From positions 1 to 20,415 of IMG/VR virus record IMGVR_UViG_3300042365_000328: 20,415 nucleotides of DNA. The stretch is one strand, 5' to 3'. Source of the DNA: a virus. The stretch's first letter is position 1. Every line of letters begins with the position of its first letter. The position numbers were made by a program, and so were the translations under genes. The notes under the pieces were generated by a model. That model was given only the letters and a program-made list of their open reading frames with translations. It had not been told where the DNA came from and searched no databases. Shown here one piece after another: positions 2,137-20,415 of this stretch.

Positions 2137-2162
2137 TCCCGCTCGGGTCAACGCCGGCGGGG
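2137..2162 (+). terminator. GC-rich 3' hairpin, copy A
   Basis: CCCGC (2138-2142), a bulged T and CGG pair with CCG and GCGGG (2154-2161) around a 7-nt loop; T2137 and G2162 can add a wobble pair. The same block, with the same bulge, recurs at 5802-5826 after the other cassette gene. There is no T-run, so a classical intrinsic terminator is not shown; it may be a T-less terminator, an RNA-stabilising 3' end or a protein site. Confidence 0.5.
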
Positions 2163-2201
2163 CTCACCCACACTGGCGCCCACGGCGCCAAGGAGCACAC
2201 T

Positions 2202-3284: not shown

Positions 3285-3286
3285 GG

Positions 3287-4531: not shown

Positions 4532-4542
4532 GTTTGGCCTCC

Positions 4543-5141: not shown

Positions 5142-5153
5142 GGAACCTCCGTG

Positions 5154-5179
5154 CGCACAGTCTACCTCGGAACTGTGCG
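5154..5179. promoter_or_regulatory. Perfect 8-bp inverted repeat in the divergent intergenic region
   Basis: CGCACAGT (5154-5161) and ACTGTGCG (5172-5179) are exact reverse complements separated by 10 bp. The repeat lies 12 nt upstream of the first gene of the minus-strand cluster, close to its ribosome-binding site. It could be an operator (arm centres 18 bp apart) or a 5' leader hairpin controlling the cluster. No protein is known to bind it. Confidence 0.45.
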
Positions 5180-5279
5180 GCCGGTATGCCGCGTTGCGCG
5201 CCGGTTGTTGCGGATTCGCACACTTGGCGACCCGTAGCGCACACGTCGCGCGATCGTGACGGTTGGTGCGTTCTTGCGT

Positions 5280-5356
5280 CGTGACATATCGTGACACCGT
5301 GCGCCGTGGACGGCGCGCCACCGGCGGATAGTAGGTGGGTGTGCGGCGGCGATGAC
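5280..5356 (+). promoter_or_regulatory. Repeated 77-bp leader/promoter element, copy B
   Basis: Second copy of the element at 1800-1876 (73 of 77 identical, ungapped). The two CGTGACA boxes (5280-5286 and 5290-5296), GGCGCGCC and GGATAGTAGG are all kept. Here it is purely intergenic, upstream of the gene at 5379, which shows that its conservation does not come from coding the end of the primase-like gene. It faces away from the minus-strand cluster starting at 5141, so 5142-5378 is a divergent control region. Confidence 0.7.
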
Positions 5357-5378
5357 GCCCCGCCGACGGAGAAACACC

Positions 5379-5780
5379 ATGCGCACGAAGATTACGGTTG
5401 ATGCCGGGTACACCGCCGAACATGTCGACTTCGGGGTCACGGACGCAAAGGGCCGCACCATCGGCGCCATGGTTCATCGTTCCGTGCGGACGTTCGCCGA
5501 GATCAAGATCGTGGAGGTCGCGGCCGGCGAGGTCGCGCCTGACGGCACGACGAAGCCGTGGCCGCGCAAGATCGACGCCGACACCGGTCGGGAAAACGTG
5601 TGCTACTCGACGCAGGAGCCGGGCGCATGGTTTCGGTTCTGCCCGCAGGCGACGCGCGGCTCCGCGTCGTTCGGGGCCTCGCAGTACGACCGCTACTACC
5701 GCACCGAAGCCGAGCGGGAGGAGGCGGTCGCCGCGTACCTGCAGGCCGCCCGCGCGCGGGCCGCCAAGACCACGCGCTAA
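5379..5780 (+). CDS. Hypothetical protein, cassette cargo B (133 aa)
   Basis: No named family. The ATG at 5379 has GGAG about 6 nt upstream; the open frame reaches further up but into the repeated leader. The N-terminal half looks beta-rich (FGVTDAKGRTIGAMVHRSV, then AEIKIVEVAAGEV), the middle is polar (residues 57-75), and the second half has PGAWFRFCPQATRGSASFG followed by a helical tail (TEAEREEAVAAYLQAARARA). This layout recalls small uncharacterised phage proteins, but I cannot name a family. It has no similarity to the 73-aa cargo of cassette A even though the flanking leader and hairpin are nearly the same. Function unknown. Confidence 0.7.
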   Translation: MRTKITVDAGYTAEHVDFGVTDAKGRTIGAMVHRSVRTFAEIKIVEVAAGEVAPDGTTKPWPRKIDADTGRENVCYSTQEPGAWFRFCPQATRGSASFGASQYDRYYRTEAEREEAVAAYLQAARARAAKTTR

Positions 5781-5801
5781 CCCCCACGGGCTCACGCCCC
5801 G

Positions 5802-5826
5802 CCCCGCTCGGGTCATGCCGGCGGGG
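5802..5826 (+). terminator. GC-rich 3' hairpin, copy B
   Basis: CCCCGC (5802-5807), a bulged T (5808) and CGG pair with CCG and GCGGGG (5818-5826) around the loop GTCATG. Twenty-four bases match copy A (2138-2162) apart from the loop, including the bulge. It starts 22 nt after the stop of the 133-aa gene. No T-run follows, so its role as terminator is likely but not shown. Confidence 0.5.
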
Positions 5827-5959
5827 TCGCCGGCTCGCGGCGACGGCTTGTAGCCTCCCGATCTGGCTTGATTCGGCGTGCCTCCGTACGGTGCGGGGGC
5901 GCGAAACGTGCTAGAACGCGAAGTAACTAGGCCGTTTGCACCGGCCGTTTGGGGGAGTG

Positions 5960-6373
5960 ATGGAACCAGGGGATCGGGTCGTTTGGTGGAGCGCGTACCA
6001 GACCCGCCAGTTCGTGGCGTGCGAGGTGCGCGCGGTGGCGCGCGTCACCCCGGGCGGGAGCCTGCGGCTAACGACGGGCGAGCTGGAGCGGGCCGAGCGC
6101 TGGCGCGTCGCCACCCCGGCCGAGGTGGCCGCGTGGGACGCGCACACCGCTGAGCAGGCTGTCGCCGAGAGGGCGGCCCGCCACATGGCGGCCTGCCCGC
6201 AGACGCGACCGGGCTTCGGGGTGGGGGTGGAGCCTGCGAAGGTCGTGCGGCCACGCGCGGCGGCTGTGCTCGCGTGGGCGGGGCGGCTCGCCGAGCTCCA
6301 GGCGCAGCTCGAGGCGGCGATGAGCGCCGCGGCGGTCGCGCTGGAGGCGTGCCAGCCGACGAAGGGGGCGTGA
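5960..6373 (+). CDS. Hypothetical protein, possible N-terminal beta-barrel (137 aa)
   Basis: The ATG at 5960 follows GGGGGAG; a GTG at 5957 and a TTG at 5936 are weaker choices. Residues 1-55 (GDRVVWW, FVACEVRAVARV, GSLRLTTGEL, AERWRVATPAEVAAW) have the strand pattern of small SH3/KOW-like beta-barrel domains seen in many short phage proteins that may touch nucleic acid. The rest is helical, with a likely coiled coil near the end (residues 100-128, with LAELQAQLEAAMSAAAVALE). Its stop is 1 nt away from the stop of the convergent tail gene, leaving no room for a terminator between them. Function unknown. Confidence 0.65.
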   Translation: MEPGDRVVWWSAYQTRQFVACEVRAVARVTPGGSLRLTTGELERAERWRVATPAEVAAWDAHTAEQAVAERAARHMAACPQTRPGFGVGVEPAKVVRPRAAAVLAWAGRLAELQAQLEAAMSAAAVALEACQPTKGA

Positions 6374-6374: not shown

Positions 6375-8036
6375 CTACTGCGGCAGCACGATGTCGTCGT
6401 CCCCGATCGGCACGACGCTGCCCGTGGTCGGTGGGGCGGGGCGAATCTCCAGCTCCAGCCGTGCCCGGCAGTGGTCGTCAAGCTCGACCGCGATCACGTC
6501 GGCGGCCGCGTCGATCAGTAGGTGTGCCGACACGAGGTGCACGACGTCGCCCGGCCGGATCCATGCGTAGTCGGCCGGGCAGTCGAACACGACCCGTCGC
6601 CGGGAGGCGGCGTCACGGGCCGCGCGCCAGAGCAGGGTCAGCGCGGCGCCGTCGCGGTCGGGCACGATGTCGGTGGTCAGGTCCTCCCCGTCGAGCACGC
6701 CGAGGCGGGTGGCCGACTGCTCGACCACGAGGGATCCAATCGCGTCGGGGTCCTCCGGGTCCGGCGATGGCCCGATCGTGGTCCGGCGTAGGTATTCGTT
6801 CGATGCGGCGTCGAGCGCCCAGCGGATCGTACGCCGATTGCAGCGCTCCCACGGTGGCGCCTGGTACTGCACGGGCCCGACGTGGGCGACGCCCGGCCCC
6901 TCCGTGATCGTGGCAACGGTCGCCGTCGAATCCCACCGCCACGGCACGAGGTACAAGCCGTCCGGCCCCACGGCGACGGACACGGGCACGAGCGGCAGCA
7001 GGTTGTCCGCCACGTAGTCCCACGGCGACACGGCTTCGTCGGCGTACCCGGCCACCTTCCAGCGATCGAGCATCGGGCGGACCGACGCCAAGCGCGCGCG
7101 ATCGATCCGGTCGACCGACCGGCCAAGCCACCACTCGATCAGGTGGCCCATCGTGGACAGCTCGGCGCCGTCGATGTCGGACAGCAGCGACCCGCTGTTC
7201 TGGTTCCAGCAGATCCAGTAATCCCCGGCTTGCTGGATCGCGAGGACCTCCGCCGAGATATCGACGACGGCGCACAGTTGGCCGAGGCCGTCCGTCTCGT
7301 GAGTGACGTCGACGACTTCGGTGGACCAGCCGCCCATCACGGCGTCGTCGCGGTACATGAGGGTGACGTTAGCCGAAACCACCCGGTGCCCGGCAATCAG
7401 GAGCTTCGTGGCGATCTCGCCGACCGACGAGTATTCGACGATCAACGCCGGAGATCCAGGCGCGACGATCGCCGTTCCGTCGGCCTCGCGGTAGGATCCG
7501 GGACGGCCCCACACGGTCGGGTAGACCCGGCCGTCGTGATCGGGTAGGCGGTCGGGCCACGTGTCGGCCGAGACCACCGCCGAAGGGGCGGGGTGGGTGG
7601 CGCGGTCGTCCCAGGGCGCCCATTCGACCGTGAAGGTGACAAGCGAATGCCTGGATCCGTCGGGATTCAGAATCTCGTCGTAGTCGGGCTCGACCACGCG
7701 GCCGGCGATCACGACCTCACGCCACGTGCGATCGATGCCTACGCGGTGCATCGACAGTTCGGCGGTCGCGGCCGACAAGTCGTGACCAAGCGCGATCAGC
7801 GCCGCCACCGACTCCGGCCAAACGACCTCGATCTGCGCGGTCGGTGGGGACGGCGACGTCGATAGCGGCTCTGCCTCGAGGCGCACGCGAAGGCCGGCGA
7901 GGCCGGCAAGGTAGGTGCGCGTGCTGGATCCGTCGGTAACCTCCATCGTTTCCGACGCGAACCGCCAGATACGGCCCGCAAAGGTCAGATCCAGAAGCCA
8001 CGCTAACCGTTCGCCGGGTTCGGGTCGGAGCCTCAC
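6375..8036 (-). CDS. Tail-tip/baseplate hub-like protein (553 aa)
   Basis: Last gene of the virion module. The GTG start at 8036 overlaps the stop of the 1108-aa gene by 4 nt. The first 200 residues are beta-rich (DLTFAGRIWRFASETMEV, RVRLEAEPLS) and contain a PTVWGRPGSYREADG block (around residues 188-202) like the GR(P/V) loops of tail hub or distal tail proteins. The middle and C-terminal regions have strands typical of tail-associated proteins (RVVFDCPADYAWIRPGDVVHL). Position after tape measure and receptor-binding genes supports a role at the tail tip, perhaps as hub or fibre-attachment protein. No enzymatic motif seen. Specific role uncertain. Confidence 0.55.
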   Translation of the reverse strand: MRLRPEPGERLAWLLDLTFAGRIWRFASETMEVTDGSSTRTYLAGLAGLRVRLEAEPLSTSPSPPTAQIEVVWPESVAALIALGHDLSAATAELSMHRVGIDRTWREVVIAGRVVEPDYDEILNPDGSRHSLVTFTVEWAPWDDRATHPAPSAVVSADTWPDRLPDHDGRVYPTVWGRPGSYREADGTAIVAPGSPALIVEYSSVGEIATKLLIAGHRVVSANVTLMYRDDAVMGGWSTEVVDVTHETDGLGQLCAVVDISAEVLAIQQAGDYWICWNQNSGSLLSDIDGAELSTMGHLIEWWLGRSVDRIDRARLASVRPMLDRWKVAGYADEAVSPWDYVADNLLPLVPVSVAVGPDGLYLVPWRWDSTATVATITEGPGVAHVGPVQYQAPPWERCNRRTIRWALDAASNEYLRRTTIGPSPDPEDPDAIGSLVVEQSATRLGVLDGEDLTTDIVPDRDGAALTLLWRAARDAASRRRVVFDCPADYAWIRPGDVVHLVSAHLLIDAAADVIAVELDDHCRARLELEIRPAPPTTGSVVPIGDDDIVLPQ

Positions 8037-11000
8037 ACCTCCTCCCGAATCGTCAGGGCGGCGACGCGCACAAGCTCCGTGTCAAGCTCTTCGCCGAGCA
8101 CGTTCTCGACGCGCACCGGCCCCTCCAGGCGCCCATAGAGGTGCTGGCCCCGGCGATTCAGCAAGACCGCCACGTCGGACGCACCGCCCTTCGCGAGCCG
8201 CGGGAGGTAGACGATGTGGCCCGCGGCGCCGGACTGCGCGCGGTGGATCCCCTCCAGCACGGTCGGGGTGGTGCCGACGAGCGCGGCGGCAAGCGCGCCC
8301 GACGCGGCCGACGCTAGGAGGTAGTCAGGGTCGGCCTCCCCGCCCGGATCCACGGCGGCGCTCGTCTCCACTCCGTCGACCCACCCGACCTCGACCAGGC
8401 GGCGGGGGACCGCCCGAACGCGCGACGTCGACGTGCCGTCCGCCTGCTCGATGATCTCGGTGGCGGTGTCGGTTTCGACGACGCGGCCCCAAGAGTAGTC
8501 CTCGGGCATGAGCACGACCGGGCCGACGACGAGGCTACCGAGCTCGTGGATCCCGCCCGGCGGTCGCGGGATCGTCGAGCTCGGGACCGGGACCCGGAGC
8601 CGGATCCCGGAGTACACCACGCCGGCAAGGTGCAGCACGATCACGGCGTCGCGCGGGATGACGTGCAGAGTGCCCGACGTCGGATCGATGGACGCGGCAT
8701 CGACGCGGAGCACGGGCCGGCGCGTCGTGGCGTTGGTCCACTTGCCCTCCGTATTCGACAGGATCTCCCACGAGTAATGGCCGGCGGAGTAGGTCCAGGC
8801 GTACGCTCCGCGAACCTCCTCGCGTACGAGCGTGGGCGAATCGGTAGGCGCGCTTGCCGACGGACGGACGGCGTTACCGTCGCGAGCGAACGGCAACGCC
8901 TCCATCCCATCGTACAGGTTGACCGTCGCCAGCGTGATCCACGCGGAGGTTCCGGCGTCGTACCCGGCGATCTCGACGCGGCCGATGGTGGATCCGAACA
9001 GGCCGATCGCGATCGTGTCGCACCCAAGGGAGGCGTCGCCGATCTCGGACCAACGGACCGCGATGTCGGCTTGCGTCGCCGAGTCCCAGCGAGCGAGCAC
9101 GCGTGGGCTCGGTTGTCCGTTGTGTGGCAGGATCCGGGTCAGTGGGTAGTCGTCGGACGCCTCGACAGACCACAGGTCACCGCGCACGGTCGGCCCGTCC
9201 GTCGCCGAGAGGACGAGTCCACCGTCTACGTAGGTGCCGCCCGGCGAAAACTCCCGCGCGCCGAGGTCGTCCGGGTTGGTTTGGCCGGAACAAAGCCGCG
9301 TCTTGCCCGCGTAGATGTCGCTCACGTCCAAGAACCGATGCCATACGGACGTGCTGGCCGACGCCGCGAGGTGGCCCCACGTGATCGTGTTGGCGCCGGC
9401 CGCGCCCGCGTTGTCGGCCAACGCATCGGACGAAGCGCCTAGGATCCAGAACCGATCGGCGGGGTGCGTGGCGTCGGCGTCCCGGTACCACACGCGCACA
9501 GCGCCGTTGCCGTCGGCGTCCTTGCCAAGTGCCACGCGGATGTCGACGCGGCCGGACAGCGACACGGTGGCGATCGTAACGGCGGCGGTGGCGTCGGCGA
9601 CGCGAAAGCCGGTCGCCGTGTGCCGGATCACGACGACCCAGCCTTCTACGCCGTCGTCGACGCGCACGAGGCACGCGACCTGGTTCGTCGACAGCGACCC
9701 GCCGGAAGTCACCTGAACCGAGTATTCGGCAATGATCCCGTGATCTACGCTGCTGGTCGGCGCGCGGGTGTAGGACCGCGTCTGCGCGATCGTCGTCGTG
9801 ACCGTCAGCGCACCGCTCGCGAGCGCATCCGATCCGGCGCCTGCCGCCGTCCAGTAGGTGTCGCCGGGCTCGTCGAACGGGAGCCACGTGCGCTCCCAGG
9901 ACACGCGCTCGTCCTGCCGGGCGAACCGGGTGTAACCGGGAAGCGTGTGCGTCGAGTAGCCCCCGAGGTAGATCGCGATCAGCGACGGATCCGCCGTGCC
10001 GGGGTTGGCCGCGAACGTGCCGACCATCACAATCCGGCCCTGGCTGGGGCAAACGCTGAACGCGGTAGGGTAGGTTGCAGCGTCATTCGACGCCCACCAC
10101 GTGGTGAGCCCGGCGGTGGACGAGCCCTGGCCGACGCCGGACCAGGTCACGCCCCCATCGGTGGAGCGGACCAGGATCCCCTCACCCGTGACGGTCGGTT
10201 GCCGGCCGAAGGCAAAGATCGCTCCCGTCTCGTCGACGCAGGCCCCGAGGTCGCCGAGCACGAGCACCTTGCTGGCGACCGTAGCCCACGCCTCCGTGCT
10301 TGACGCGACGTCGTAGGCGGTGGCAACCTCCAGATCGTACGACGCGGACGACACGATCCGCGCGCGAGGCTTGCGGTCGATCGCCGTCAGGTAGAGCACG
10401 ACGAAGCCGGATCCGGCGGCGAGCACTTCGGGGAGCATCCCGCCCGAATCGGCTACGTCGTCGGTCGACCACGCTCCGTTGACGAGTTTGAAGCTCACTC
10501 CGTCGTCGGTGCTGTGCCATTGCGCCAACGTGTCGAGGTAGTCCAGATCGGTGTCACGGGCCTGCAGGTGGGCTACGAGCAGGACCTGCCCGTTGGCGTA
10601 GGCGCACCGCAGGCGGCCGAGGATGTAGCCACCGAGGCCGGCGCCGGTGGTGCTCGCGTAGGCTACATCGTCGGCCAGGCAGTACGACTGACCGAGCGCC
10701 CACGTCGCGCCGTCGTCGTCACTGTACCACATGCGCACATTGCCGAGTCCGGTAGTGGCGGTCACCGGATCGAACACCCAGTGGTAGAGGTGCAGCCGCC
10801 CGCTCGGCAAGCGAAGCAGGCACGGGTTGAAGGCCTGCGACGCCGGCAACGCAAACGAAGTCGAGTAGACTGTGACGGTCGACCACGTGTCGGCGGTCGG
10901 CGAGCGCACCGACACCTCGATGCCGTCGTCGGCGGGCGTGCGGCCGCTGTCGTCAGTCTGGTACGCGGTGACGACGGTGCCGTCGGCGAGCGAGATCGCG

Positions 11001-11359
11001 TGAGGCTGGGCGGTCGACACGAGCGTGCCGGACGGCGCGACGCGGACGGCCTCGTACCCGCTGATTGTGCCGGGTGGCTCCCAGCCTCGGTATTCGTCGG
11101 TGTCGTCCGTGCTGTTGCGCCAAACGTACGTGGCGCCGTCGATTTCTGGCAGGCCGCCGCGGAGCGTCAGGATCCGAAGGTGGGCGCCCTCGGCTTGCTC
11201 GCCGGAGCTCGTCAGCGTCAGGCCGGTGACCTGATCCGGGTCCGGCACGCCGGGACGGGGCGACGTCTGCACGAGCGTCGTCTCGGCGTCCCACAGGGCG
11301 ACGCCAGCATCGTTAGCCAGCAACGCCCGGTATACCGCTCGCGATTGGTCGGACGCCAT
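8033..11359 (-). CDS. Large tail-tip/receptor-binding protein with sialidase-like Asp-box propeller (1108 aa)
   Basis: A virion protein that probably binds host surface glycans. Three Asp-box (BNR) motifs, pattern S-x-D-x-G-x-T-W, are visible at residues 213-220 (SDDDGATW), 283-290 (STDDGVSF) and 399-406 (STDGGVTW), so residues about 100-470 likely form a sialidase-type beta-propeller. Catalytic arginines and the Tyr/Glu pair of true sialidases could not be confirmed, so it may only bind. Residues about 490-690 look like a jelly-roll/LamG-type domain, and the C-terminal 400 residues are beta-rich and probably anchor to the tail. The ATG at 11359 follows GGAGG and shares one base with the tape-measure stop. 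The next gene starts within its stop codon. Confidence 0.65.
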   Translation of the reverse strand: MASDQSRAVYRALLANDAGVALWDAETTLVQTSPRPGVPDPDQVTGLTLTSSGEQAEGAHLRILTLRGGLPEIDGATYVWRNSTDDTDEYRGWEPPGTISGYEAVRVAPSGTLVSTAQPHAISLADGTVVTAYQTDDSGRTPADDGIEVSVRSPTADTWSTVTVYSTSFALPASQAFNPCLLRLPSGRLHLYHWVFDPVTATTGLGNVRMWYSDDDGATWALGQSYCLADDVAYASTTGAGLGGYILGRLRCAYANGQVLLVAHLQARDTDLDYLDTLAQWHSTDDGVSFKLVNGAWSTDDVADSGGMLPEVLAAGSGFVVLYLTAIDRKPRARIVSSASYDLEVATAYDVASSTEAWATVASKVLVLGDLGACVDETGAIFAFGRQPTVTGEGILVRSTDGGVTWSGVGQGSSTAGLTTWWASNDAATYPTAFSVCPSQGRIVMVGTFAANPGTADPSLIAIYLGGYSTHTLPGYTRFARQDERVSWERTWLPFDEPGDTYWTAAGAGSDALASGALTVTTTIAQTRSYTRAPTSSVDHGIIAEYSVQVTSGGSLSTNQVACLVRVDDGVEGWVVVIRHTATGFRVADATAAVTIATVSLSGRVDIRVALGKDADGNGAVRVWYRDADATHPADRFWILGASSDALADNAGAAGANTITWGHLAASASTSVWHRFLDVSDIYAGKTRLCSGQTNPDDLGAREFSPGGTYVDGGLVLSATDGPTVRGDLWSVEASDDYPLTRILPHNGQPSPRVLARWDSATQADIAVRWSEIGDASLGCDTIAIGLFGSTIGRVEIAGYDAGTSAWITLATVNLYDGMEALPFARDGNAVRPSASAPTDSPTLVREEVRGAYAWTYSAGHYSWEILSNTEGKWTNATTRRPVLRVDAASIDPTSGTLHVIPRDAVIVLHLAGVVYSGIRLRVPVPSSTIPRPPGGIHELGSLVVGPVVLMPEDYSWGRVVETDTATEIIEQADGTSTSRVRAVPRRLVEVGWVDGVETSAAVDPGGEADPDYLLASAASGALAAALVGTTPTVLEGIHRAQSGAAGHIVYLPRLAKGGASDVAVLLNRRGQHLYGRLEGPVRVENVLGEELDTELVRVAALTIREEV

Positions 11360-13314
11360 CAGCGCCTCCGGGTGGATCGGCCGACCCGATCCCCGCCAGC
11401 AATAGCCCGGTGCAGGGCGCCGCGACGGGTGTAGGCTTCGGCGGCGACCTGATCCATCACGCGGTGGCGCAGCATCAACGACACGGCGCCTCCGGATCCG
11501 CCCGACGACTCACCGCGGTTCGCGGCGTTGACGCCTGCTTCCCCTCCGACCGCGCGCACGCCCGCGGCCGTCAGAACGGCCTCGTTCCGGCGTGCGCGGA
11601 TCGCTACCTCATCGGGCGCGCTGGATCCGCTGGCGCCGATCATGCCGCCCGTGTGGAACGTGGGCAGGGGCGCAGCGGCGGCGGTCGCGAGTTGTACGGC
11701 GCCCAACGCCGACATCGCCACGATGCCAGGAATGTTCAGGGGCGGGGGCGCGCTTGCGGCGGCCTTCGTGACCGCGGCTGCAGTGTTGACCGTGATCTCC
11801 AGAATCCCGGCCGCTTTCGCCATCTTGGCGCGGCTCATGGCAGCGTCGCGCGCCGCCTGCAACTCTGCCTCCGTCGCCGTGCCGGTGGCCTCCAGGGCGG
11901 CGAGGGCGCTGGCGGCGGCGTCAGCGCTCGACTGCCCAGCGAGCGAGACGAGCGCCCCGAACGACCCGGCCACCGTGGCGCCCGTGTCCTGCCACGCGGC
12001 GCGTAGCGTGGCGGCGTCGCGCTGTGCCTGCGCGGTCATCTGCTCGCCTGCGCGCTGCGACGCCTCCAGCGCCCGGTTAGACGCCTCCGCCTGCGTCGCG
12101 AGGGCATCGGCCATCGCCGAGGTGGACGCGTCTACGGCGGCGGCCTTGGCCAGCTCCGCCTGCTCGACCGCCTCCGCGCCACCCCCGGCCGTCGCCGTGA
12201 GGGCGTCGATCTGGGCGATCTGCTCCACGAGTTGCAACGTGATCCGGTGCATGGGGTCGGCGGCGGCGATGGTGCTCGCCGTCGCCATCGCTTGGATCCG
12301 GTCGAGGGCGGCGAGCTGCGCCGCTTCCTCGCGAGCGGCATCGGCGGCGCGCCGTGCCGCTTCGGCCTTGGCCTCCTTGGCGGCCCTTGCCCGTTCGTCG
12401 TTCTCGGCGTCGACGTCGACCAGCAGGCCCAACGCGATCAGTTGCTGGCGTTCCTGCTCGAGCGCGGCCTCGACGTCCTCGGCAGACTTGGCAAGATCGG
12501 TGTTTGCCGCGGCGAGATCGCGGCCGGCCTTCGTGTTCGCGACCGCCCTCGGCAACACCTCATCGAGCGCATCGGCCATGTTGAGCAGTGGCACAATGCC
12601 GAACGACACGGCATCGTGAAACATGTTCGATTGGTTACCGGCCTCGATCATGACCTCTGCGAACGCGATAGCGACCGATACACCTCGGCTAAGGCTACCG
12701 GTGAGGCGGCCAACCGTCTCGCCGGCCGCCACGACTTGCGGAACGAACGTGTTGAGTGTCCCCAGCAAGTCGCCGACGCCATCAGCGGATGCGGCCGCAA
12801 ACGCCTGCTTGGCCTGCAGGGCCGCCGCCGTGAGCGAATCGATCGACGTCTGGGCCTCGGAGATCGACGCGAGTTGCGTGGCGGTGACCGCCGACGTCGC
12901 GCCGAGCTCCGCAAGTGCGGCCTCCGTCGCCGCGAAGTCGCGGATGCTCGACACCGCGGCGCCGATCGCTGCGCTTGCGCCCGCGGCGGCTCCACCGATC
13001 AGCAGCATCGAGGCGGCAGCGGCGCCGGCCACGGGACCGAGCGCAGCGATCCCCTTGCCGACGTCCGCCACGTCGCCGACGATTCCGCCGAACACCTTCT
13101 CCGCGCCGGTCCTGATGTCGCCTAGCCCGGCCTTCCACGAGGCTGCGGATCCAGCGGCGGCGCCCTTGGCCGCGCGCTCGGCTGCCTTGATCTCCCGCGA
13201 CAGTTGGCCGGCCATCGCCTTGGCCTCGACACCGGTAATGCCGGGGATCTTCGCCATCTCCTCGCGGAACTTGTCGAGGCGCGCCACGACGTCGAGGCCG
13301 ATCGTTTCACCCAC
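11359..13314 (-). CDS. Tail tape measure protein (651 aa)
   Basis: Sets tail length and sits inside the tail tube. It is mostly helical and alanine-rich, with a hydrophobic stretch at residues 88-122 (GPVAGAAAASMLLIGGAAAG and on) typical of tape measures, a charged coiled-coil middle (VEAALEQERQQLIALG, then repeated ARRAADAAREEAAQLAALD), and a second hydrophobic region before FHTGGMIG and DEVAIRARRNEAVLTAAGV, which match the C-terminal motif common in phage tape measures. At about 0.15 nm per residue, 651 residues would give a tail near 100 nm. The GTG at 13314 has a GGAGGT site and overlaps the preceding gene by 8 nt. Position after the frameshifted chaperone pair and one minor tail gene is typical. 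Confidence 0.85.
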   Translation of the reverse strand: MGETIGLDVVARLDKFREEMAKIPGITGVEAKAMAGQLSREIKAAERAAKGAAAGSAASWKAGLGDIRTGAEKVFGGIVGDVADVGKGIAALGPVAGAAAASMLLIGGAAAGASAAIGAAVSSIRDFAATEAALAELGATSAVTATQLASISEAQTSIDSLTAAALQAKQAFAAASADGVGDLLGTLNTFVPQVVAAGETVGRLTGSLSRGVSVAIAFAEVMIEAGNQSNMFHDAVSFGIVPLLNMADALDEVLPRAVANTKAGRDLAAANTDLAKSAEDVEAALEQERQQLIALGLLVDVDAENDERARAAKEAKAEAARRAADAAREEAAQLAALDRIQAMATASTIAAADPMHRITLQLVEQIAQIDALTATAGGGAEAVEQAELAKAAAVDASTSAMADALATQAEASNRALEASQRAGEQMTAQAQRDAATLRAAWQDTGATVAGSFGALVSLAGQSSADAAASALAALEATGTATEAELQAARDAAMSRAKMAKAAGILEITVNTAAAVTKAAASAPPPLNIPGIVAMSALGAVQLATAAAAPLPTFHTGGMIGASGSSAPDEVAIRARRNEAVLTAAGVRAVGGEAGVNAANRGESSGGSGGAVSLMLRHRVMDQVAAEAYTRRGALHRAIAGGDRVGRSTRRR

Positions 13315-13846
13315 GGGTTACCTCCGTGATGATTGCGCGCTTGAGCTCGGGTAGCGCCGCCTTGACCCGCGCCTTCATCGGGCCGGAGACCAGGTGCGGA
13401 ACGAGGAACTTGGGCGTTCCCTGCGCCGCTTTCGGATTCGGCTCATACGCGATCCCCATCCTGCCAACGGGCATCCCTGCGCGCTTGCGGCGACCCCACT
13501 CCTCGTTGCTGACCTCGACCTCGAGCAGCGCGGTGGATCGGGGCTGGCGCACGTACAGCGGTACGGGCTTGCCGCCTGCGCGGCGCGTGTCGGTGGATCC
13601 GACGCTGACCCGGACCTCTGATTCGGAGATCGTCACGGTGACGCCGATATCGCCGGATCGGCCCGTGCGGCGCGTGACGAGGCCGTACCACTGGCGCTCT
13701 GCGTCGGTCGCCACGTCGGACGCGATCGCCTCCAGGCGACTCACAAGGCCCCGGCTGGCGGCGTCTGCGGCACGTCGGTACAGGTCGGCGATCGTGCCGC
13801 TGACCTCGATCGTGACGTCGCCGTCGCGGTAGCGGGTGACGCTCAC
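13307..13846 (-). CDS. Minor tail protein between chaperone and tape measure (179 aa)
   Basis: The GTG at 13846 was chosen because it overlaps the chaperone stop as GTGA; the longer frame upstream is shadow sequence. The N-terminal helix region (TIADLYRRAADAASRGLVSR) and a central beta part (GDIGVTVTISESEVRVSVGS) resemble HK97 gp10-type head-tail or minor tail proteins, which also carry a central RTGR-like loop (residues about 59-63 here). The C-terminus has PKFLVPHLVSGPMKARVKAALPELKRAI, again like that group. In many siphophages gp10-type genes lie before the tail tube; here it lies after the chaperones, so exact role is uncertain. Confidence 0.6.
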   Translation of the reverse strand: MSVTRYRDGDVTIEVSGTIADLYRRAADAASRGLVSRLEAIASDVATDAERQWYGLVTRRTGRSGDIGVTVTISESEVRVSVGSTDTRRAGGKPVPLYVRQPRSTALLEVEVSNEEWGRRKRAGMPVGRMGIAYEPNPKAAQGTPKFLVPHLVSGPMKARVKAALPELKRAIITEVTRG

Positions 13847-14432
13847 AGGCTGCCCGCGCGAGCGGCGGCGGCGGCCTTGGCGAGCTCGCGCAGGTCGGGC
13901 GGCGGCTTGGAGGCCTGCCCGGACTCGGCGCGATAGAGTGCCAGGATCATGATCTGCCGCTCCCTGTCGAGCCCGTAATACCACATCGGATCCTGCGCGA
14001 CCGTCAAGCCTAGTCGGATCGCCCACCGGTCAAGGGCGCCTCGCTTGCCCCCAAAGGGCCGGCGGCCTCTGCGACCTCCGGTTCGCGCGGGGACAGGTGC
14101 TCGACCATCAGCGGCAGGATCCGGTTGCCGGCTTCCGCGATGGCCGTGCGCGACACGCCGAGCCCGATCAGCCACGAGTAGACGTCGCCGCCGTACCGCA
14201 TCAGGTCGTAGTCGGGGCCGTACTTCGCGGGGGCGTGGCGCTGGATCCGCGTCGCGAGCGCGATCGCCGCGGCCTGGACGCGGAGCAGGCGCACCCCGCC
14301 CGCATCGAGCGCGGGCGCCCACGCGGTCGCGCAGTCGTCGCGCGCCGCGAAGTTGGGCAGGATCACGGTGTGCGACGGGCCGACGCCGGGGACGTCGAGG
14401 CTGATCGTGGGCGGTGGCGCCGGGGTGCTCAT
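13843..14432 (-). CDS. Frameshifted tail assembly chaperone, long form (gpGT-like, about 196 aa)
   Basis: Predicted product of a -1 ribosomal frameshift at 14052-14058. The first 127 residues come from the upstream frame; after the shift, translation continues in the frame that ends at 13843, adding about 69 residues (FGGKRGALDRWAIRLGLTV, then MWYYGLDRERQIMILALYRA). This second part has no start codon of its own with a ribosome-binding site, and W-x-x-x-LG and YYGL-type motifs are typical of the T part of tail chaperones, which bridges the tape measure and the tail tube during assembly. In lambda the long and short forms must be made at a set ratio. The GTGA overlap with the next gene suggests coupling. 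Confidence 0.7.
14010..14432 (-). CDS. Tail assembly chaperone, short form (gpG-like, 140 aa)
   Basis: Short form made without frameshifting; it ends at TAG 14010. The N-terminus (SLDVPGVGPSHTVILPNFAA) is beta-like, and the rest is helical, including PDYDLMRYGGDVYSWLIGLGV, the pattern seen in siphophage G-type chaperones. The ATG at 14432 has only a weak ribosome-binding site but lies 5 nt after the tail tube stop, so it is likely coupled to that very highly translated gene. Position between tail tube and tape measure is the standard one. Confidence 0.7.
   Translation of the reverse strand: MSTPAPPPTISLDVPGVGPSHTVILPNFAARDDCATAWAPALDAGGVRLLRVQAAAIALATRIQRHAPAKYGPDYDLMRYGGDVYSWLIGLGVSRTAIAEAGNRILPLMVEHLSPREPEVAEAAGPLGASEAPLTGGRSD
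14052..14058 (-). promoter_or_regulatory. -1 frameshift slippery heptamer CCCTTTG in the tail chaperone
   Basis: Read on the minus strand, the zero frame is GGC CCT TTG GGG GCA. The heptamer C CCT TTG fits X XXY YYZ: slipping back one base re-pairs CCT on CCC and TTG on TTT, which enters exactly the frame that stays open to 13843. It lies 40 nt before the zero-frame TAG, inside the overlap of the two frames. A run of five Gs follows directly. Confidence 0.65.
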
Positions 14433-14436
14433 CGGA

Positions 14437-14949
14437 TCACGCGATCGTCAGGTAGTCGGTGGAGAGCGCGTGCGCGGTACCCTTGATCGAGAACTTGCCG
14501 GGGATCCCCTCGGCAAAGTCCACCTCAAACGAGCAGTACTTGAGCGTGATCGAACTGTCGCCGGTCGCGCCGAAGTTGCTCCGCTCACCGGTCCACGCGA
14601 GTTGGAGCAGGTACGCCCCACCCAGCGCGGCGCTCGCCTTGCTGACCGCCGACGCCCACACCCCGAGCTTCAGCAGCGCGTCGCCCGGCAGCGCGGTCGT
14701 GCCGTCGCCGATGATGCCGGTTGCATGGCACGTGAACGTGAAAGGAATGGACATACGCTCGACTTCGCGCACAGAGTACGGGATGCCGCGAGTCTTGAAC
14801 TCTTCCTTGCGGAGTTGCCCAGACATCAGGCCCTGCACTTGCAGGTCGCCGTCCTCGTACAGAATCGTCAGAGACAGCGGGGTGCCGGTCCCGTCGGTGA
14901 TGGCGATCGCGCCGTCCTTGGGAACGAGCGGGTTGGCGGAAACGGACAT
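14437..14949 (-). CDS. Major tail tube protein (170 aa)
   Basis: Probably the repeated subunit of the tail tube. The size, the beta-rich sequence (AIAITDGTGTPLSLTILYEDGDLQ, then MSIPFTFTCHA) and the C-terminal GKFSIKGTAHALSTDYLTIA suit tail tube proteins, and it lies between the tail terminator and the chaperone pair as in most siphophages. The ATG at 14949 has one of the strongest ribosome-binding sites in the window (AAGGAGG, 5 nt spacing), in keeping with a product needed in many copies. A family name was not assigned by sequence alone, so the call rests on position, size and strand pattern. Confidence 0.75.
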   Translation of the reverse strand: MSVSANPLVPKDGAIAITDGTGTPLSLTILYEDGDLQVQGLMSGQLRKEEFKTRGIPYSVREVERMSIPFTFTCHATGIIGDGTTALPGDALLKLGVWASAVSKASAALGGAYLLQLAWTGERSNFGATGDSSITLKYCSFEVDFAEGIPGKFSIKGTAHALSTDYLTIA

Positions 14950-14958
14950 ACACCCTCC

Positions 14959-15399
14959 TTAGTTGGGCGCAACGTGCTGGACGTCAAACGCCAGTCGGAT
15001 CTCGTACCACATGGGATCCGGCGTAACCCGGACGTCTTGCGCCTTCCACCGGATCGAGCAGTCGCCGGGGTACGACGCCGACACGGCGCACACCGCGACG
15101 CGCACGGTGGACGCGGCGTCGAGCGCGGCGTCGTACGCCGTGACCTGGTCTTTCGGAGTGGCGCGCCAGAACAGCACTACGACGAGCCGGGTCAGCGTGA
15201 GCGCGCCGACGCCGGGTCGCTGGCGATCCCGGAGGTCGGCCGCCGCCGGGACGCCGACCGCGAAGCCGCCGTGCAGCACGGAGGCGGGCTCGGCTTGCAC
15301 GAGGTCGTAGGCGCGAGCCAACTCCTGATAGGGAACGCCCAACGCCGTGATCTTGGCGGCTACCGCCTGACGGATCGCGCTGGCGGCTACCGTCCCCAT
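14959..15399 (-). CDS. Tail terminator / tail completion protein (146 aa)
   Basis: Small mixed alpha/beta protein that probably caps the head-facing end of the tail tube. It begins with a helix (ASAIRQAVAAKITAL), contains a LTRLVVVLFWRATPKDQVTAYDAALDAASTVR segment (strand then long helix), and ends RWKAQDVRVTPDPMWYEIRLAFDVQHV, with a final beta-strand, the order found in lambda gpU-like terminators and neck proteins. The ATG at 15399 has only a weak ribosome-binding site and overlaps the preceding gene by 13 nt, implying coupling. It is directly before the tail tube gene. Confidence 0.65.
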   Translation of the reverse strand: MGTVAASAIRQAVAAKITALGVPYQELARAYDLVQAEPASVLHGGFAVGVPAAADLRDRQRPGVGALTLTRLVVVLFWRATPKDQVTAYDAALDAASTVRVAVCAVSASYPGDCSIRWKAQDVRVTPDPMWYEIRLAFDVQHVAPN

Positions 15400-16148
15400 G
15401 GGGACCGCAGGGGCGGGGTTGTCGACTCCGCGAAGAACGTGGTGGCGTGCGCAGGGCGCCGGACCTCACCGCCGGTGCCGTCCTCGTCGCGGTCGTAGAC
15501 CACCGACAGACCGTCGAACGCCTTGCGCGCGAGGTCCTCGTATTCGGCTTGCAGGTCGGCCCACTTGGCCTCTTGGCCGCCGACCCGAAAGTCTCGCATG
15601 ATGATGACCAACGCCCGGAACATGTGAACGCGCCGCAGGTCCTCCGACGACAGGATCCGGTGCGGCAGGTTGCCCTGCTGGCGGAGGTCGTCGGTCAGAT
15701 CCGCCCACGCTTCGTCAAGCTGCGCTTGGTAGCTCGCGAGCGACGCGGGGCGCTGGCTGGCGAGGTCGCTGTGACGACGGATCAGGTCCAGATCGGTCAC
15801 GACCGGGTAGAGTTGGCTCCGGCACACGGCGCCGGAGCGGCGGAACCGGTGCGACGTACCGGCCACAACCAACGACCACTCGACCGAGTAGCCCTCCCGG
15901 TACGGCTCGTCGGCGAGCACCGAGGATCCGATCGAGTACTGCGCGACGGATCCGGTGACGGTGACGGCCTGTGCGTCGACGAGCGCCGTTCCGTCGGGCC
16001 GCAGCACGGTCAGCGTCGAGCCCGACTGCGTGGGGGCGACAACGGCGCCGTCTCGGTACAGGGGGCACGTAACGAGGTTCGCCCGGCCCTTCACAAGTGT
16101 TTCGGGGCCGGAAAACCGGGCTGCATAGATCGTGTCGGCAGCGGCCAC
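15387..16148 (-). CDS. Head-tail connector-like protein (253 aa)
   Basis: Probably part of the neck that joins capsid and tail. The first half is beta-rich (LVTCPLYRDGAVV, STLTVLRPDGTALVDAQ, YREGYSVEWSLVV), an immunoglobulin-like pattern, and the second half is helical (YQAQLDEAWADLTDDLRQQG, LRRVHMFRALVIIMRDFRVGG), resembling gp6-type head-tail adaptors fused to an extra beta-domain. The fused arrangement makes it longer than simple adaptors (about 100-120 aa). The GTG at 16148 follows GGGGTG. It lies between a beta-sandwich virion protein and the tail terminator. Confidence 0.6.
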   Translation of the reverse strand: MAAADTIYAARFSGPETLVKGRANLVTCPLYRDGAVVAPTQSGSTLTVLRPDGTALVDAQAVTVTGSVAQYSIGSSVLADEPYREGYSVEWSLVVAGTSHRFRRSGAVCRSQLYPVVTDLDLIRRHSDLASQRPASLASYQAQLDEAWADLTDDLRQQGNLPHRILSSEDLRRVHMFRALVIIMRDFRVGGQEAKWADLQAEYEDLARKAFDGLSVVYDRDEDGTGGEVRRPAHATTFFAESTTPPLRSPWGR

Positions 16149-16168
16149 CGGTCACCCCGAAGCGCAGA

Positions 16169-16672
16169 TCAGACCGCGCTTTCCGAGACGTTGAGCACGA
16201 CAAGCGCCGCGTCGTTGTCGGCGTGCGACGCCGACCACTGACCGGTCACTTCGAGCAGGACGGGGACCTGCGGATCCAGATCCAGCGACGTGATCTTGCT
16301 CGACCAGACCTTGACGGCGGTACCGACCGCATCCGGATCGTTGTACGTCCCGAAGCACTCGATCACGCTGGCGCCGTCGACGTCGCGCACGACCAGGGTG
16401 CCCTCGATGCGGCACACATCGTTGTCGGCCTGGTCGACCGCGGCGGTCTCCAGGATCGGGGTACCGGTGAGCGTGGTCGGGCCGAGACGGACGCGCACCG
16501 TGAGGGTGTCGGTGCTGTTGCTGTCCGTGGTACGGGTCAGCGCCTCGAACTTGATCACCTTGCCGGCCTGCAGGGCACCGATCGGGAACGTGCGCGAGCC
16601 GAGCACGACCTCGGAAATCCCGGCGGGGGTGATGGTGCCGTCGGCAACCTGTACGGCGAGAACGTTGTGCAT
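16169..16672 (-). CDS. Beta-sandwich virion protein, possible head decoration or fibre protein (167 aa)
   Basis: Almost wholly beta-rich with regular alternating strands: ALQAGKVIKFEALTRTTDS, TDTLTVRVRLGPTTLTGTPI, NDVCRIEGTLVVRDVDGA, then VLLEVTGQWSASHADNDAAL. This matches jelly-roll type decoration, spike or fibre proteins found next to capsid genes, which bind the outside of the head. The ATG at 16672 has AAGGAG about 6 nt upstream, and the start lies 2 nt after the stop of the preceding gene. No catalytic motif. Head decoration is inferred from position two genes downstream of the major capsid gene; a tail role is possible. Confidence 0.55.
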   Translation of the reverse strand: MHNVLAVQVADGTITPAGISEVVLGSRTFPIGALQAGKVIKFEALTRTTDSNSTDTLTVRVRLGPTTLTGTPILETAAVDQADNDVCRIEGTLVVRDVDGASVIECFGTYNDPDAVGTAVKVWSSKITSLDLDPQVPVLLEVTGQWSASHADNDAALVVLNVSESAV

Positions 16673-16674
16673 GG

Positions 16675-17331
16675 TCACTCCTTGCGTTTCGTGAGGGCGG
16701 CCAACTTGGCGCCGAACAGGTCGGCGGCGGCTTTGGCGCTGGCGGATCCGGTACGGTTGGCGCGGCGGCGCTGACCCGACGTCAGGCGCGAGCGGAGCGC
16801 CGCAAGGGCCGGCGCCGAGGGGCCATCGAGCACGGACCCGATCAGCGCGTGGCGCCACCGGTTCCACCCGTCGTCGTCGTAGTCGAGCAGTACACGCGTC
16901 CCGACCACGATCGGGCGCTGCCAGACGGGCATGTGCACGTCACCGGCCGTGCCGTCGTACCCGACGCAGTAGTCGGCGAAGTCCTCGCCGAACGCCTTGC
17001 CGCCGGTGGTGCGCGGGACCTGGATCCACCCAAGGCGACCGCGGGAGGCCAGCGCTTCGGTGGGGTCGCCGACTGCCGAGCGGCGCAGCGGGATGACGCC
17101 CGATCGCCCGCCGCGGAACTGGAACGCCCGCAGCGACGGGACCAGCAAGGCCTCGGCGCCGACCATCGCCACGTCCCACGAATGAGGATGCGCCAAGAAC
17201 ACGAACGGGGGCGACGGATCCATCGGGACGAGCGCGCCCGCGGCCGCCGCCGGAACGGAGGCGGCGGGCTTGGCCCGAGGCGGGCCGGAGCCGCCGACGA
17301 GCGCGCTGGTAGTGGCTGCGGGCTTCGCCAT
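16675..17331 (-). CDS. Hypothetical virion-module protein (218 aa)
   Basis: No family recognised. The ATG at 17331 begins 2 nt after the capsid stop (TGATCATG), with little ribosome-binding site, so it is likely translated by coupling. Residues 1-40 are Ala/Pro-rich and probably disordered; the central region has strand-like blocks (FVFLAHPHSWDVAMVG, GWIQVPRTTGGKAFGEDFADY, IVVGTRVLLDYDDDGWNRWRHALIG), and the last 45 residues are basic and helical (RSRLTSGQRRRANRTGS to KLAALTKRKE), which could bind DNA or the capsid interior. It is presumably a head or head-completion protein. Confidence 0.55.
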   Translation of the reverse strand: MAKPAATTSALVGGSGPPRAKPAASVPAAAAGALVPMDPSPPFVFLAHPHSWDVAMVGAEALLVPSLRAFQFRGGRSGVIPLRRSAVGDPTEALASRGRLGWIQVPRTTGGKAFGEDFADYCVGYDGTAGDVHMPVWQRPIVVGTRVLLDYDDDGWNRWRHALIGSVLDGPSAPALAALRSRLTSGQRRRANRTGSASAKAAADLFGAKLAALTKRKE

Positions 17332-17333
17332 GA

Positions 17334-18260
17334 TCAGGCCGCCAACGCCGTGATCTTGGTGCCGCGCGCGTCTTCGATCTCGATCGTGCCGAGCATGTAC
17401 CACCCCAGCACGGAGGTCGTGCCGTCGTCGCCGCGGATCGCCTCGACCAGCAGCGGGCCGACGTGGAGCAGAACGATCGTGCCGGGCTGCGGCACGAGGT
17501 CCTGCTCGGCGTAGCCGATCGCGCCGACCCCGAACATCATGCTCACGCGGTCGGATCCGCTCGCGGGCATGAGCGACGAGGTGTAGATCTCGATGCCGTC
17601 GTACATGCCCTTGTAGCCGCGGCCCTTGAGCACCTGCATCTCGGCGGCGGCCGGCTGCCACTGGGTGAGGCCGTTCCGTCCTTCGAGGTCGATCATCCAC
17701 TCCGAGAAGTGGTGATCGTACAGGACGGCGAGGTACGGACCCGGCACGCCTGCGTCGTTGAGGGTCTGCTTCGCCGCCATGAACATGTCATGGTCGAACG
17801 CCGCACCCGACGCGCCGGACTCCGTGGAGAAGTCGGCGGCATGCGACGCGATCTCCTCGGTGAACGTCATGGACGCCGACATCGCGATGGACTGCGCGAG
17901 GCGCACCGCGTTGAAGGATCCGGTCGGATCCACCGCGGCAAGCTCGTCCGACACGGCGTGCCGGAGCCCCTTCTTGGCGATCGTGACCGTGCGCTTGGCC
18001 GAGCTGATCGCCGTCTCCGAGAGGCCCGTCGCTTCGGCCGCGTCGGTCATCCGCTGGATCCCGTCGAGGCCGAGCAGCGGCATCGTGCCGGACAGCGAGC
18101 CGGACCCGGGCGCACCGAGGCCGGTCAGCGGGCCCACGTTGAGCAGCGCCGGATGGCCGCGCAGCGAGGCGCGGTCGCCAAGCACGAGCAGCGCGGTCTT
18201 GCTGGCGATCGCCGTGGCGAGGGTATCGGATCCTGGGGTCGCGGTGGTGACAGCGGGCAT
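17334..18260 (-). CDS. Major capsid protein, HK97-fold type (308 aa)
   Basis: Main shell protein by position (after portal and scaffold), length and features. The middle has the long helix-rich part of the HK97 fold (SFNAVRLAQSIAMSASMTFTE, then FDHDMFMAAKQTLNDAGVPGPYLAVLYDHHFSEW), followed by GRGYKGMYDGIEIYTSSLMP and a beta-rich end (GTIVLLHVGPLLVEAI), as in coat proteins of other siphophages. The ATG at 18260 has a strong AAGGAGGG site and shares one base with the scaffold stop (TAATG). No maturation protease is seen nearby in the window. A long N-terminal delta domain is absent, so the separate scaffold gene fits. Confidence 0.8.
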   Translation of the reverse strand: MPAVTTATPGSDTLATAIASKTALLVLGDRASLRGHPALLNVGPLTGLGAPGSGSLSGTMPLLGLDGIQRMTDAAEATGLSETAISSAKRTVTIAKKGLRHAVSDELAAVDPTGSFNAVRLAQSIAMSASMTFTEEIASHAADFSTESGASGAAFDHDMFMAAKQTLNDAGVPGPYLAVLYDHHFSEWMIDLEGRNGLTQWQPAAAEMQVLKGRGYKGMYDGIEIYTSSLMPASGSDRVSMMFGVGAIGYAEQDLVPQPGTIVLLHVGPLLVEAIRGDDGTTSVLGWYMLGTIEIEDARGTKITALAA

Positions 18261-18877
18261 TAGCCCTCCTTCTTGGCGTACGCGGCGATGAAGCCGGCGT
18301 CAACGATGTTGGGGTGCGCGGCTTGGATCGCCGGGAGGTTCGCCCGGAACTCTGCGGCGGTCATCTGGGCGATCGACTCCGCAGTGAAGACTGGCGCGGC
18401 GGCGGGGCCGCTGCCGGCGACGGTCGTGGATCCGGTCTTGGCGGTCGTGGATCCGGTCGCGCCCGCGCCCGCGCCCGACCCCGCGGCACCAGCGGTGCCG
18501 GATCCGGAGCCGCCGCCGGTTGCCGACTTCGGGAGCCACGGCGCCAGATGCGGCGCCGTCTCCGCGGTGAGCCCGCCGATCCACGCGTCGAACGCGGGGG
18601 CCTTGTCGCCTGCGGCCTGCGCAGCTTCGGCGTATTCCGCCTCGAACCAGCCGCGAACCTTCGGATCCGCGATGCCGGCCTTGTCGAGCACGGCGCCACG
18701 GGTGGCCGCCGTGCGAACGGCCTCGACCTCGGTAGCGTGTGCGGCCTTCGCGGCGGTCAACGCCGCGGTTGCGGCGACGGACTGCTCGCGGAACGCGTCG
18801 CGCTCACGCTCGGCTTTCGCCAGGGCGGCCGCCGCGGCGCGCAGGGTCTTGAGCTCTGCCTCGTCTACTTCGGGCAT
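18260..18877 (-). CDS. Capsid scaffold-like protein (205 aa)
   Basis: Probably the scaffold used to build the procapsid. Residues 5-60 are a charged, alanine-rich coiled coil (AELKTLRAAAAALAKAERER), residues about 70-125 form a small helical domain (ADPKVRGWFEAEYAEAAQAAG, then FDAWIGGLTAETAPHLAPWL), a Gly/Ser/Thr/Ala linker spans about 126-170, and the end (ESIAQMTAAEFRANLPAIQA) resembles the capsid-binding tail of scaffolds. The ATG at 18877 is preceded by GAGAGGATCC; an upstream start at 18904 is less likely. The linker contains a perfect 17-bp direct repeat. Position between portal and capsid is standard. Confidence 0.7.
   Translation of the reverse strand: MPEVDEAELKTLRAAAAALAKAERERDAFREQSVAATAALTAAKAAHATEVEAVRTAATRGAVLDKAGIADPKVRGWFEAEYAEAAQAAGDKAPAFDAWIGGLTAETAPHLAPWLPKSATGGGSGSGTAGAAGSGAGAGATGSTTAKTGSTTVAGSGPAAAPVFTAESIAQMTAAEFRANLPAIQAAHPNIVDAGFIAAYAKKEG
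18421..18458. repeat. 17-bp direct repeat with 21-bp period in the scaffold linker
   Basis: The 17 bases at 18421-18437 recur exactly at 18442-18458, so the unit is 21 bp (7 codons) and in frame. It encodes two TGSTT units, and each copy carries one GGATCC. Probably a local tandem duplication that lengthened a flexible linker. Confidence 0.6.
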
Positions 18878-18920
18878 GGATCCTCTCGCTGGATCAGATT
18901 GCACGGTTGCGGCGGTGGCG

Positions 18921-20414
18921 TCAAGGGGCCGACGCCGGAAGGGTGACGACGGGCGCCGGGGTGGTGCCGGCGGTTACTCGAAACTCGGCGTTATCGGCGG
19001 CGATTCGCCGGAGTGCGGCGCGGGCCTCCTCCTCGGTGGATCCGGGGTGCTCGATCAGGTACGCGTCGACGGTCGACATCCGCCCAGCGGCGATCAGCTC
19101 GCCGTGGTGCGCGCGCATCGCCTCCGCTTCGTCGCGCGCCAGCGGCACGCTCGCGTAGTCGATCCGGTAGCCCTGCTCGGGGATCGCGGTCATGCCGGCC
19201 GCACCGTTCGTGATCGCGGCGATGCGCTCGATAAGGCCGAGATCGGCGACACGCAGGGATGGAGTGTACTTCTGCTGCGCTCGCCGCTTGTCGTCGCGGC
19301 TGATCGTGAGGGCCGCCGCCGACCACGGGTTGCTGCTCGACTGAATCAACTGCGCGGCGGACAAGCCGAGGCCGTCGAAGTCGGCAACCGACCGCTCGAC
19401 CATCGCTACGGTCCGCGCCAGCGCTTCGGGGTCGGTCGGGTGCAGTTGCGTGAATGTGCCGGGTGTACCTGGCTCGATGTGCTCAAAGTGGTTGACCGCG
19501 ACCGGATCCGAAACGACTTCGGCGCGTGCCTGTCCGTCGGGACCTTCGCGCGGCACGGATCCGACCGGCACGAGGCCGACGGCGATGTTTCGCGGCCACG
19601 AAGCACGGTAGATGACGTGACCCAGGAAGGTGTACGACGCGCCGGTGTCGAGCGTGCCCTCGACCACCTCCTCGCCTTCGGTCGGGTCGAACAGGCGGCC
19701 GCGCATCCGTGCGTGGTACAGGACGCCAGGAAGGAACGGCGTTCCTGCTCGATCGCCCTCGGTCCACCGCCACGGGTAGGACCCGGCGGCGGGGCCGAGC
19801 ACGGCGGCCGTGTAGTCCGACGGCGCCGTCGGAGCGGCCTCGATAAAGCGCCACGAGGGCGCGGCTGGATCCGCGATCGACAGGATCTCCCAGACCCAGC
19901 GGTATCCGAGGGCGGGGACGTGGATCCACCGCAGCTCGCGGACTTCGACCGGGACGTTGGGGTCGGCCGGGTGCGGGGTGGCCTCGATGCAGTCGGGGGT
20001 CACGGCGCGCACGACGGGCCGACCGAGCTCCGCGGACCAGTCGAGGCGCATCCACATCTCGCGCAGGCCGATCAGGTCGGACTGCACCGACTGCATCAGC
20101 GGCCACAGGCCCATCGCGTCGAGCACGCCGCCCGGATCCAGCAGCAGCGGGACCGGCCCGGCCGGATGACGGACCATCGGGGGCCGGTCGTAGTTGACGG
20201 CGAGCTCCGTGCACAGCCGGCGAAACGGGTTGCGCGCCATCGAGACGCGCCCCATGACTGCGCGGCGCGTCGGGCCGAAGTGCTCCTGAACGCGGGCGTC
20301 CAGGTCGGCGCGCCAGCCGCCGGACAGCAGACGACGGCGCAGGCGCGCGACATCCCAGCGCACGACGGTGCGCGGATCCGACGAGGCGGGCGGCGATTCG
20401 GGGGCGTGGATCAG
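18921..20414 (-). CDS. Portal protein, probably cut at the right window edge
   Basis: Forms the ring through which DNA enters the capsid. The C-terminal part (YRIDYASVPLARDEAEAMRA, ELIAAGRMSTVDAYLIEHPG, then EEEARAALRRIAADNAEF) matches the end of SPP1 gp6-type portals. The centre has PSDYTAAVLGP and GRLFDPTEGEEVVEGTLDTG, and GLSAAQLIQSSSNPWSAAAL resembles the portal stem/crown region. The N-terminal part (RNPFRRLCTELAVNYDRPP) matches the start of the core. The frame stays open to the window edge (LIHAPESPPASSDPRTVV), so the true start is probably outside; a GTG at 20363 is the first internal start but has no ribosome-binding site. A terminase gene would be expected upstream. Confidence 0.75.
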   Translation of the reverse strand: MIHAPESPPASSDPRTVVRWDVARLRRRLLSGGWRADLDARVQEHFGPTRRAVMGRVSMARNPFRRLCTELAVNYDRPPMVRHPAGPVPLLLDPGGVLDAMGLWPLMQSVQSDLIGLREMWMRLDWSAELGRPVVRAVTPDCIEATPHPADPNVPVEVRELRWIHVPALGYRWVWEILSIADPAAPSWRFIEAAPTAPSDYTAAVLGPAAGSYPWRWTEGDRAGTPFLPGVLYHARMRGRLFDPTEGEEVVEGTLDTGASYTFLGHVIYRASWPRNIAVGLVPVGSVPREGPDGQARAEVVSDPVAVNHFEHIEPGTPGTFTQLHPTDPEALARTVAMVERSVADFDGLGLSAAQLIQSSSNPWSAAALTISRDDKRRAQQKYTPSLRVADLGLIERIAAITNGAAGMTAIPEQGYRIDYASVPLARDEAEAMRAHHGELIAAGRMSTVDAYLIEHPGSTEEEARAALRRIAADNAEFRVTAGTTPAPVVTLPASAP

Positions 20415-20415
20415 G

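Follow-up and report, generated by a model that had tools for sequence, protein, structure and literature searches.

An excess of GGATCC in the virion module of a virus fragment and its likeness to known iterated-palindrome signatures

Restriction-type palindromes are often avoided by phages (PMC6286503), and a fragment of an uncultured high-GC phage in which a BamHI-type site is held at about five times expectation, strongly enough to retain rare GGA codons, raises the question of what produces and keeps these sites. The stretch analysed here as a whole, referred to as the window, is a linear IMG/VR virus record of 20,415 bases, the record itself being a fragment. Exact counting gives 54 GGATCC in the window, 4 before position 6375 and 50 between 6557 and 20374, in agreement with the approximate tally of the first-pass annotation (about 54, with about 50 after 6375 and four near 527, 4267, 4564 and 4843). 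The features to which the counts refer are listed below.

41-6373, no strand: early (left) half, in which six CDS hold 0 GGATCC (0.6 expected)
41-445, plus strand: DUF1643 protein (E 3.3e-35)
648-1814, plus strand: primase-like protein of the early half
2492-2974, plus strand: small protein similar to sigma-70 region 4 and to DUF6362
3531-4058, minus strand: Mom-like DNA modification protein (phrog_1384, E 2.8e-20; Pfam Mom, E 1e-8)
527-4848, no strand: left-half GGATCC sites 527, 4267, 4564 and 4843, no significant excess
6375-8036, minus strand: tail protein, 553 aa, weak Phage-tail_3 match; 5 GGATCC (1.3 expected)
8033-11359, minus strand: 1108-aa protein, weak BNR match; 11 GGATCC (2.7 expected)
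11359-13314, minus strand: tape-measure-like protein, 651 aa, partial match to phrog_5448; 4 GGATCC (0.6 expected)
13307-17331, minus strand: seven smaller virion-module genes, 12 GGATCC in CDS
17334-18260, minus strand: major capsid protein, Phage_capsid_4 just below cut-off; 5 GGATCC (0.4 expected)
18260-18904, minus strand: scaffold-like protein, role from position and gene order; 5 GGATCC (0.7 expected)
18921-20363, minus strand: portal protein, role from position and gene order; 6 GGATCC (1.6 expected)
6557-20379, no strand: GGATCC-dense zone, 50 sites by exact count, with first bases at 6557, 6732, 7494, 7653, 7926, 8245, 8346, 8548, 8602, 8990, 9130, 9442, 9987, 10174, 10409, 11170, 11494, 11623, 12294, 13147, 13595, 13988, 14117, 14243, 14502, 15014, 15653, 15924, 15948, 16272, 16744, 17022, 17216, 17553, 17916, 17926, 18056, 18228, 18428, 18449, 18500, 18663, 18878, 19038, 19504, 19557, 19867, 19922, 20134, 20374

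With the exception of 13988 and 20374, the sites of the right zone (48 of 50) lie fully within CDS, and the scaffold-like gene has the highest density among the virion genes (7.8 per kb). As to the early half, relatives of the DUF1643 protein occur on many conjugative plasmids, the protein encoded at 2492-2974 is a possible phage transcription regulator in view of its sigma-70 region 4-like match, and the Mom-like protein bears on base modification of phage DNA.

In the right 14,041 bases the 50 sites compare with 4.7 expected from composition, 6.6 from a first-order Markov model and 28.2 from a maximal-order Markov model built from GGATC, GATCC and GATC. The latter expectation is high because GGATC and GATCC are also in excess, therefore Markov models alone are not decisive. 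With a z of 16.9, GGATCC is at the top of the 4,096 hexamers in this part, where no other palindrome comes near it (CGATCG, z 3.0); in the left 6,374 bases it occurs 4 times against 2.0 expected. The 13 virion CDS, all on the minus strand, contain 48 GGATCC, where shuffling synonymous codons yields 9.6 +/- 2.2 (highest count in 300 runs, 15) and 13.9 +/- 2.9 when codon-junction dinucleotides are preserved, and with either procedure it is the first of about 4,080 hexamers. Each of the 13 genes exceeds its own expectation and all reading frames are used, with 22, 16 and 10 sites in frames 0, 1 and 2 (1.4, 6.6 and 1.9 expected), the improbable GGA-TCC frame contributing most. The amino acid contexts described at first sight were recovered from the coordinates: in the capsid gene Gly-Ser (17553, 17916, 18228), Asp-Pro (17926) and Gly-Ile (18056), and in the 553-aa gene GGA-TCC at four of the five sites. 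GATC as such is about two-fold in excess in the virion genes (183 vs 92.6 expected; about 135 vs 83 without GGATCC), and NGATCN words other than GGATCC are mildly raised. Since all frames contribute, every gene is in excess and the count survives the shuffle, both objections named beforehand, counts close to a codon-preserving shuffle and equal enrichment of many similar 6-mers, fail. The excess is independent of codon usage and composition, and an explanation by codon usage, amino-acid content, base composition or chance has a negligible probability: the maximal-order Markov model accounts for 28 of the 50 sites, roughly half, but the two shuffles, every gene and every frame stand against it.

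The sites are scattered and irregularly spaced (gap CV 0.72, with one pair 10 bases apart), which rules out tandem or clustered repeats. CCCGGG (2 vs 19.7) and GGGCCC (3 vs 15.7) are strongly depleted under a first-order Markov model of positions 1-20415; both are also low in the virion genes by codon shuffle, perhaps owing to restriction avoidance.

The words that differ from GGATCC by one base were counted with the GGATCC codons held fixed in the shuffle; an apparent depletion of neighbours came largely from these codons entering the shuffle and mostly disappeared once they were fixed. Variants with an intact GATC core are in excess (50 vs 26.8 expected) and those with a broken core are not (40 vs 43.8), so that deviations fall on the outermost bases and the core is kept, as in the highly iterated palindromes (HIPs) of cyanobacteria. 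Among the C-to-T variants there is no depletion (GAATCC/GGATTC, 5 vs 1.8; AGATCC/GGATCT, 12 vs 8.1), and because of this Vsr-like short-patch repair, one form of the repair bias in the host suggested at first sight, is not supported.

A related genome of 38 kb (G001), 92% identical to the window over the late module, allowed the maintenance of the sites to be followed. Of 48 GGATCC, 41 are intact in G001, against 21.9 expected under a codon- and codon-position-matched model (z 5.7) and 27.9 under a more stringent background in which the sites themselves are counted, where GGATCC is the most conserved of 182 words. Unchanged codons amount to 21/22 within sites and 10/24 outside for GGA, and to 10/10 and 29/53 for GAT; in TCC codons no such difference is seen (19/22 and 58/68). 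Conservation at third positions is 93% within sites vs 81% in the local flanks (P 0.003). Selection or a restoring bias keeps the GGATCC sites.

At larger distances, L022, a syntenic virus with 28-42% identity over eight proteins, also has GGATCC as top hexamer (17 vs 3.1 expected), and only 1 of 38 window sites is found at the homologous place (0.4 expected), indicating that density is kept and not position. Another relative (L037) tends towards GGATCC (8 vs 2.8 expected). Farther relatives are without excess, one of them (L028) holding 0 vs 6.1 expected, and for this reason the excess is a property of the lineage or host and not of the protein folds. Different favoured palindromes may occur in other members: CAGCTG is in excess in the distant relatives L034 and L039 (27 vs 4.2 and 26 vs 4.4), which have 0 GGCGCC vs about 14, both without codon control. 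In L030 and L032, GAGCTC reaches 52 vs 11.6 and 9 vs 0.5, and L032 has zero GATC across 11.8 kb.

The first-pass annotation had placed the over-representation in the virion half. This stands for the right part of the window, although the block is not ended by the window, as in relatives it runs upstream into the terminase gene (5 GGATCC vs 1.2 expected), which lies outside it. In the early genes the excess is weak or absent: pooled over the window and relatives they hold 5 vs 2.85 expected, a fold below that of the late module (Poisson P 0.006), and G001 has 1-8 GGATCC per kb in the late module and 0-3 per kb elsewhere. The late module of the window is 99.9% identical with that of a further record (G003), while the left parts differ between some such records; as late modules are near-identical and left parts different, early genes turn over faster. 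An old signature together with newly arrived early genes that have not taken it up would be compatible with the late bias.

Searches for relatives that could reveal the host gave no relative in genome contigs scanned with the terminase and the 1108-aa protein, no match in phages with the capsid, terminase and 1108-aa protein, and none in plasmids with the 1108-aa protein. Lipoprotein-like ends (..LACAALDTG..) raised the suspicion of a Myxococcota host. For Myxococcus itself such a host is unsupported, as phage Mx8 and plasmid pMF1 (L042 and L045) are without GGATCC; their GATC density (0.1 and 0.3 per kb) denotes strong avoidance, and Myxococcus-like hosts are unlikely because GATC is nearly absent from both. 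The methylation mark put forward at first sight is a possible cause of the excess. In Arthrobacter sp. U41, m6A is reported at GGATCC (PMC5356067), yet two plasmids of this strain have no excess (17 vs 17.1; 22 vs 16.3), so a host methylase alone is insufficient, as far as this one case goes. Also against a methylase as cause, mycobacteriophage Daisy, described below, and most of the GGATCC-rich loci examined have no gene with a methylase motif, by which a host enzyme is neither excluded nor shown.

Several explanations were weighed for an excess that is maintained and biased to late genes. Phage-encoded modification at GATC or GGATCC, by the D12-like methylase of G001 or the Mom-like protein of the window, with many modified packaged sites aiding protection or packaging, is considered unlikely. 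G001 does encode, at L013:12309-13049, a D12-like methylase related to Type II MTases (PADLOC MTase_II, E 1.4e-34; phrog_56) beside a second MTase-like protein, the window has its Mom-like gene (phrog_1384, E 2.8e-20), and the two-fold excess of GATC overall fits this possibility. However, Daisy has the same signature and ORFs without a methylase motif, the enzymes of G001 and the window are only putative modifiers of GATC or GGATCC, modified genomes have no obvious need for more sites, and a genome-wide excess would be expected. The late bias and the strong maintenance of the sites are what a density-dependent site for a phage or host protein on the late module would produce, acting in late transcription, nucleoid-type silencing or packaging. 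This alternative is rather improbable, as the sites are intragenic, use every frame and have irregular gaps, those of L022 are not at homologous positions, the same hexamer is found genome-wide in the unrelated Daisy, and there is no candidate protein. The binding site proposed at first sight survives as a rival in its density-dependent form; a fixed-position site is unlikely because the distant relative shares no positions beyond the 1 in 38. More generally, direct selection on the late module for many GGATCC in the service of a phage function, modification or binding on late genes or packaged DNA, is doubtful, and no virus is known to us in which an iterated palindrome serves in this way.

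Neutral mutation or repair bias alone (Vsr-type, or GmeC-directed mismatch repair) would make GGATCC without functional selection, and it accounts for the recurrence in unrelated viruses and for the absence of fixed positions. Exactly such an origin has been put forward for HIPs, in a model where their excess is a by-product of methyl-directed, GmeC-directed mismatch repair (PMC4390886). The strong retention observed here fits that model only where repair actively restores sites, and the undepleted C-to-T variants together with a retention far beyond codon-matched expectation, which requires a restoring bias or selection, make neutral bias alone improbable. Over these alternatives we tentatively prefer a host-linked, HIP-like GATC-core palindrome signature carried and kept by the late module, a reading that is plausible if short of probable. 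The excess would then be a lineage-level signature, most likely common to the host genome, behind which would stand a process that recognises first the core, GATC, and next the whole hexamer; its agent would probably be a methyltransferase acting in connection with repair, replication or protection, with methylation as the presumed cause. Such a signature would be imprinted on the long-resident late (virion) module and kept there, and the frequently replaced early genes would bear it weakly. Against the host-linked reading, a purely host-imposed bias should eventually reach the early genes too. If the signature is host-linked, GGATCC becomes a marker for host prediction; and since unrelated phages have the hexamer too, some of them mycobacteriophages that can be cultured, the role of iterated palindromes is testable in laboratory phage.

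DNA uptake sequences serve the uptake of conspecific DNA and differ from the six-base palindrome seen here in virion genes. Those of Neisseriaceae and Pasteurellaceae (PMC1939737) resemble GGATCC in being short over-represented words.

A pattern scan, biased by design, found among the matches listed unrelated viruses with scattered GGATCC excess. At L131:9718-10416 ten GGATCC fall within one open frame of 233 codons, a local cluster unlike the scattered sites elsewhere. In two related phage contigs (L129 and L158), GGGATCCC is the top palindromic octamer, and the L129 portal protein has matches in phages from a wide range of hosts, with Synechococcus phages among the best. Synechococcus JA-3-3Ab and JA-2-3B have this octamer as their alternate HIP (PMC4390886); L129 and L158 are thus candidate phages of hot-spring Synechococcus with the alternate HIP of their host, which is suggestive, not proof, of a phage and host sharing an iterated palindrome.

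The resemblance to HIP1 (GCGATCGC of cyanobacteria, in which single-base variants fall mostly on the outer positions; PMC4390886), already remarked upon in the first-pass annotation, is borne out: after codon control one GATC-core palindrome is the most over-represented word, it is used in all frames and spread inside genes, variants affect the outer bases, and sites are conserved, with density kept over position. The differences are that HIPs are known on cyanobacterial chromosomes with matching methylases and the window is from a phage for which none of the results obtained here points to a cyanobacterial host; that the hexamer core in the window is preceded by C or T, not G; and that GGATCC occurs once per 282 bases, against roughly once per 1000 for HIPs (PMC4390886).

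In mycobacteriophages of subcluster B3 (Pipefishvirus), GATC and GGATCC were reported in 2015 at more than four times expectation genome-wide, without explanation (PMC4841201). In the B3 phage Daisy, GGATCC occurs 62 times against 15.5 by codon shuffle, ranks first and is spread genome-wide, and 55 of 56 sites are kept between Akoma and Daisy (47 expected). In 22 genes of Daisy (L043, 1-50000), GGCGCC and GGGCCC are absent, with 37 and 17 expected by codon shuffle. Daisy and the window phage have no protein in common, and the excess, genome-wide in B3, is biased to the late module in the window, where the left half (4 vs 2.0) and the early genes (5 vs 2.85) fall short of a whole-genome excess. 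As far as the literature was searched, the signature of the window is of a kind already seen and, as in B3, without explanation; what both phages share is the same hexamer at about four-fold or more (48 vs 9.6 here), a milder excess of GATC (183 vs 92.6), the use of all frames and the keeping of sites.
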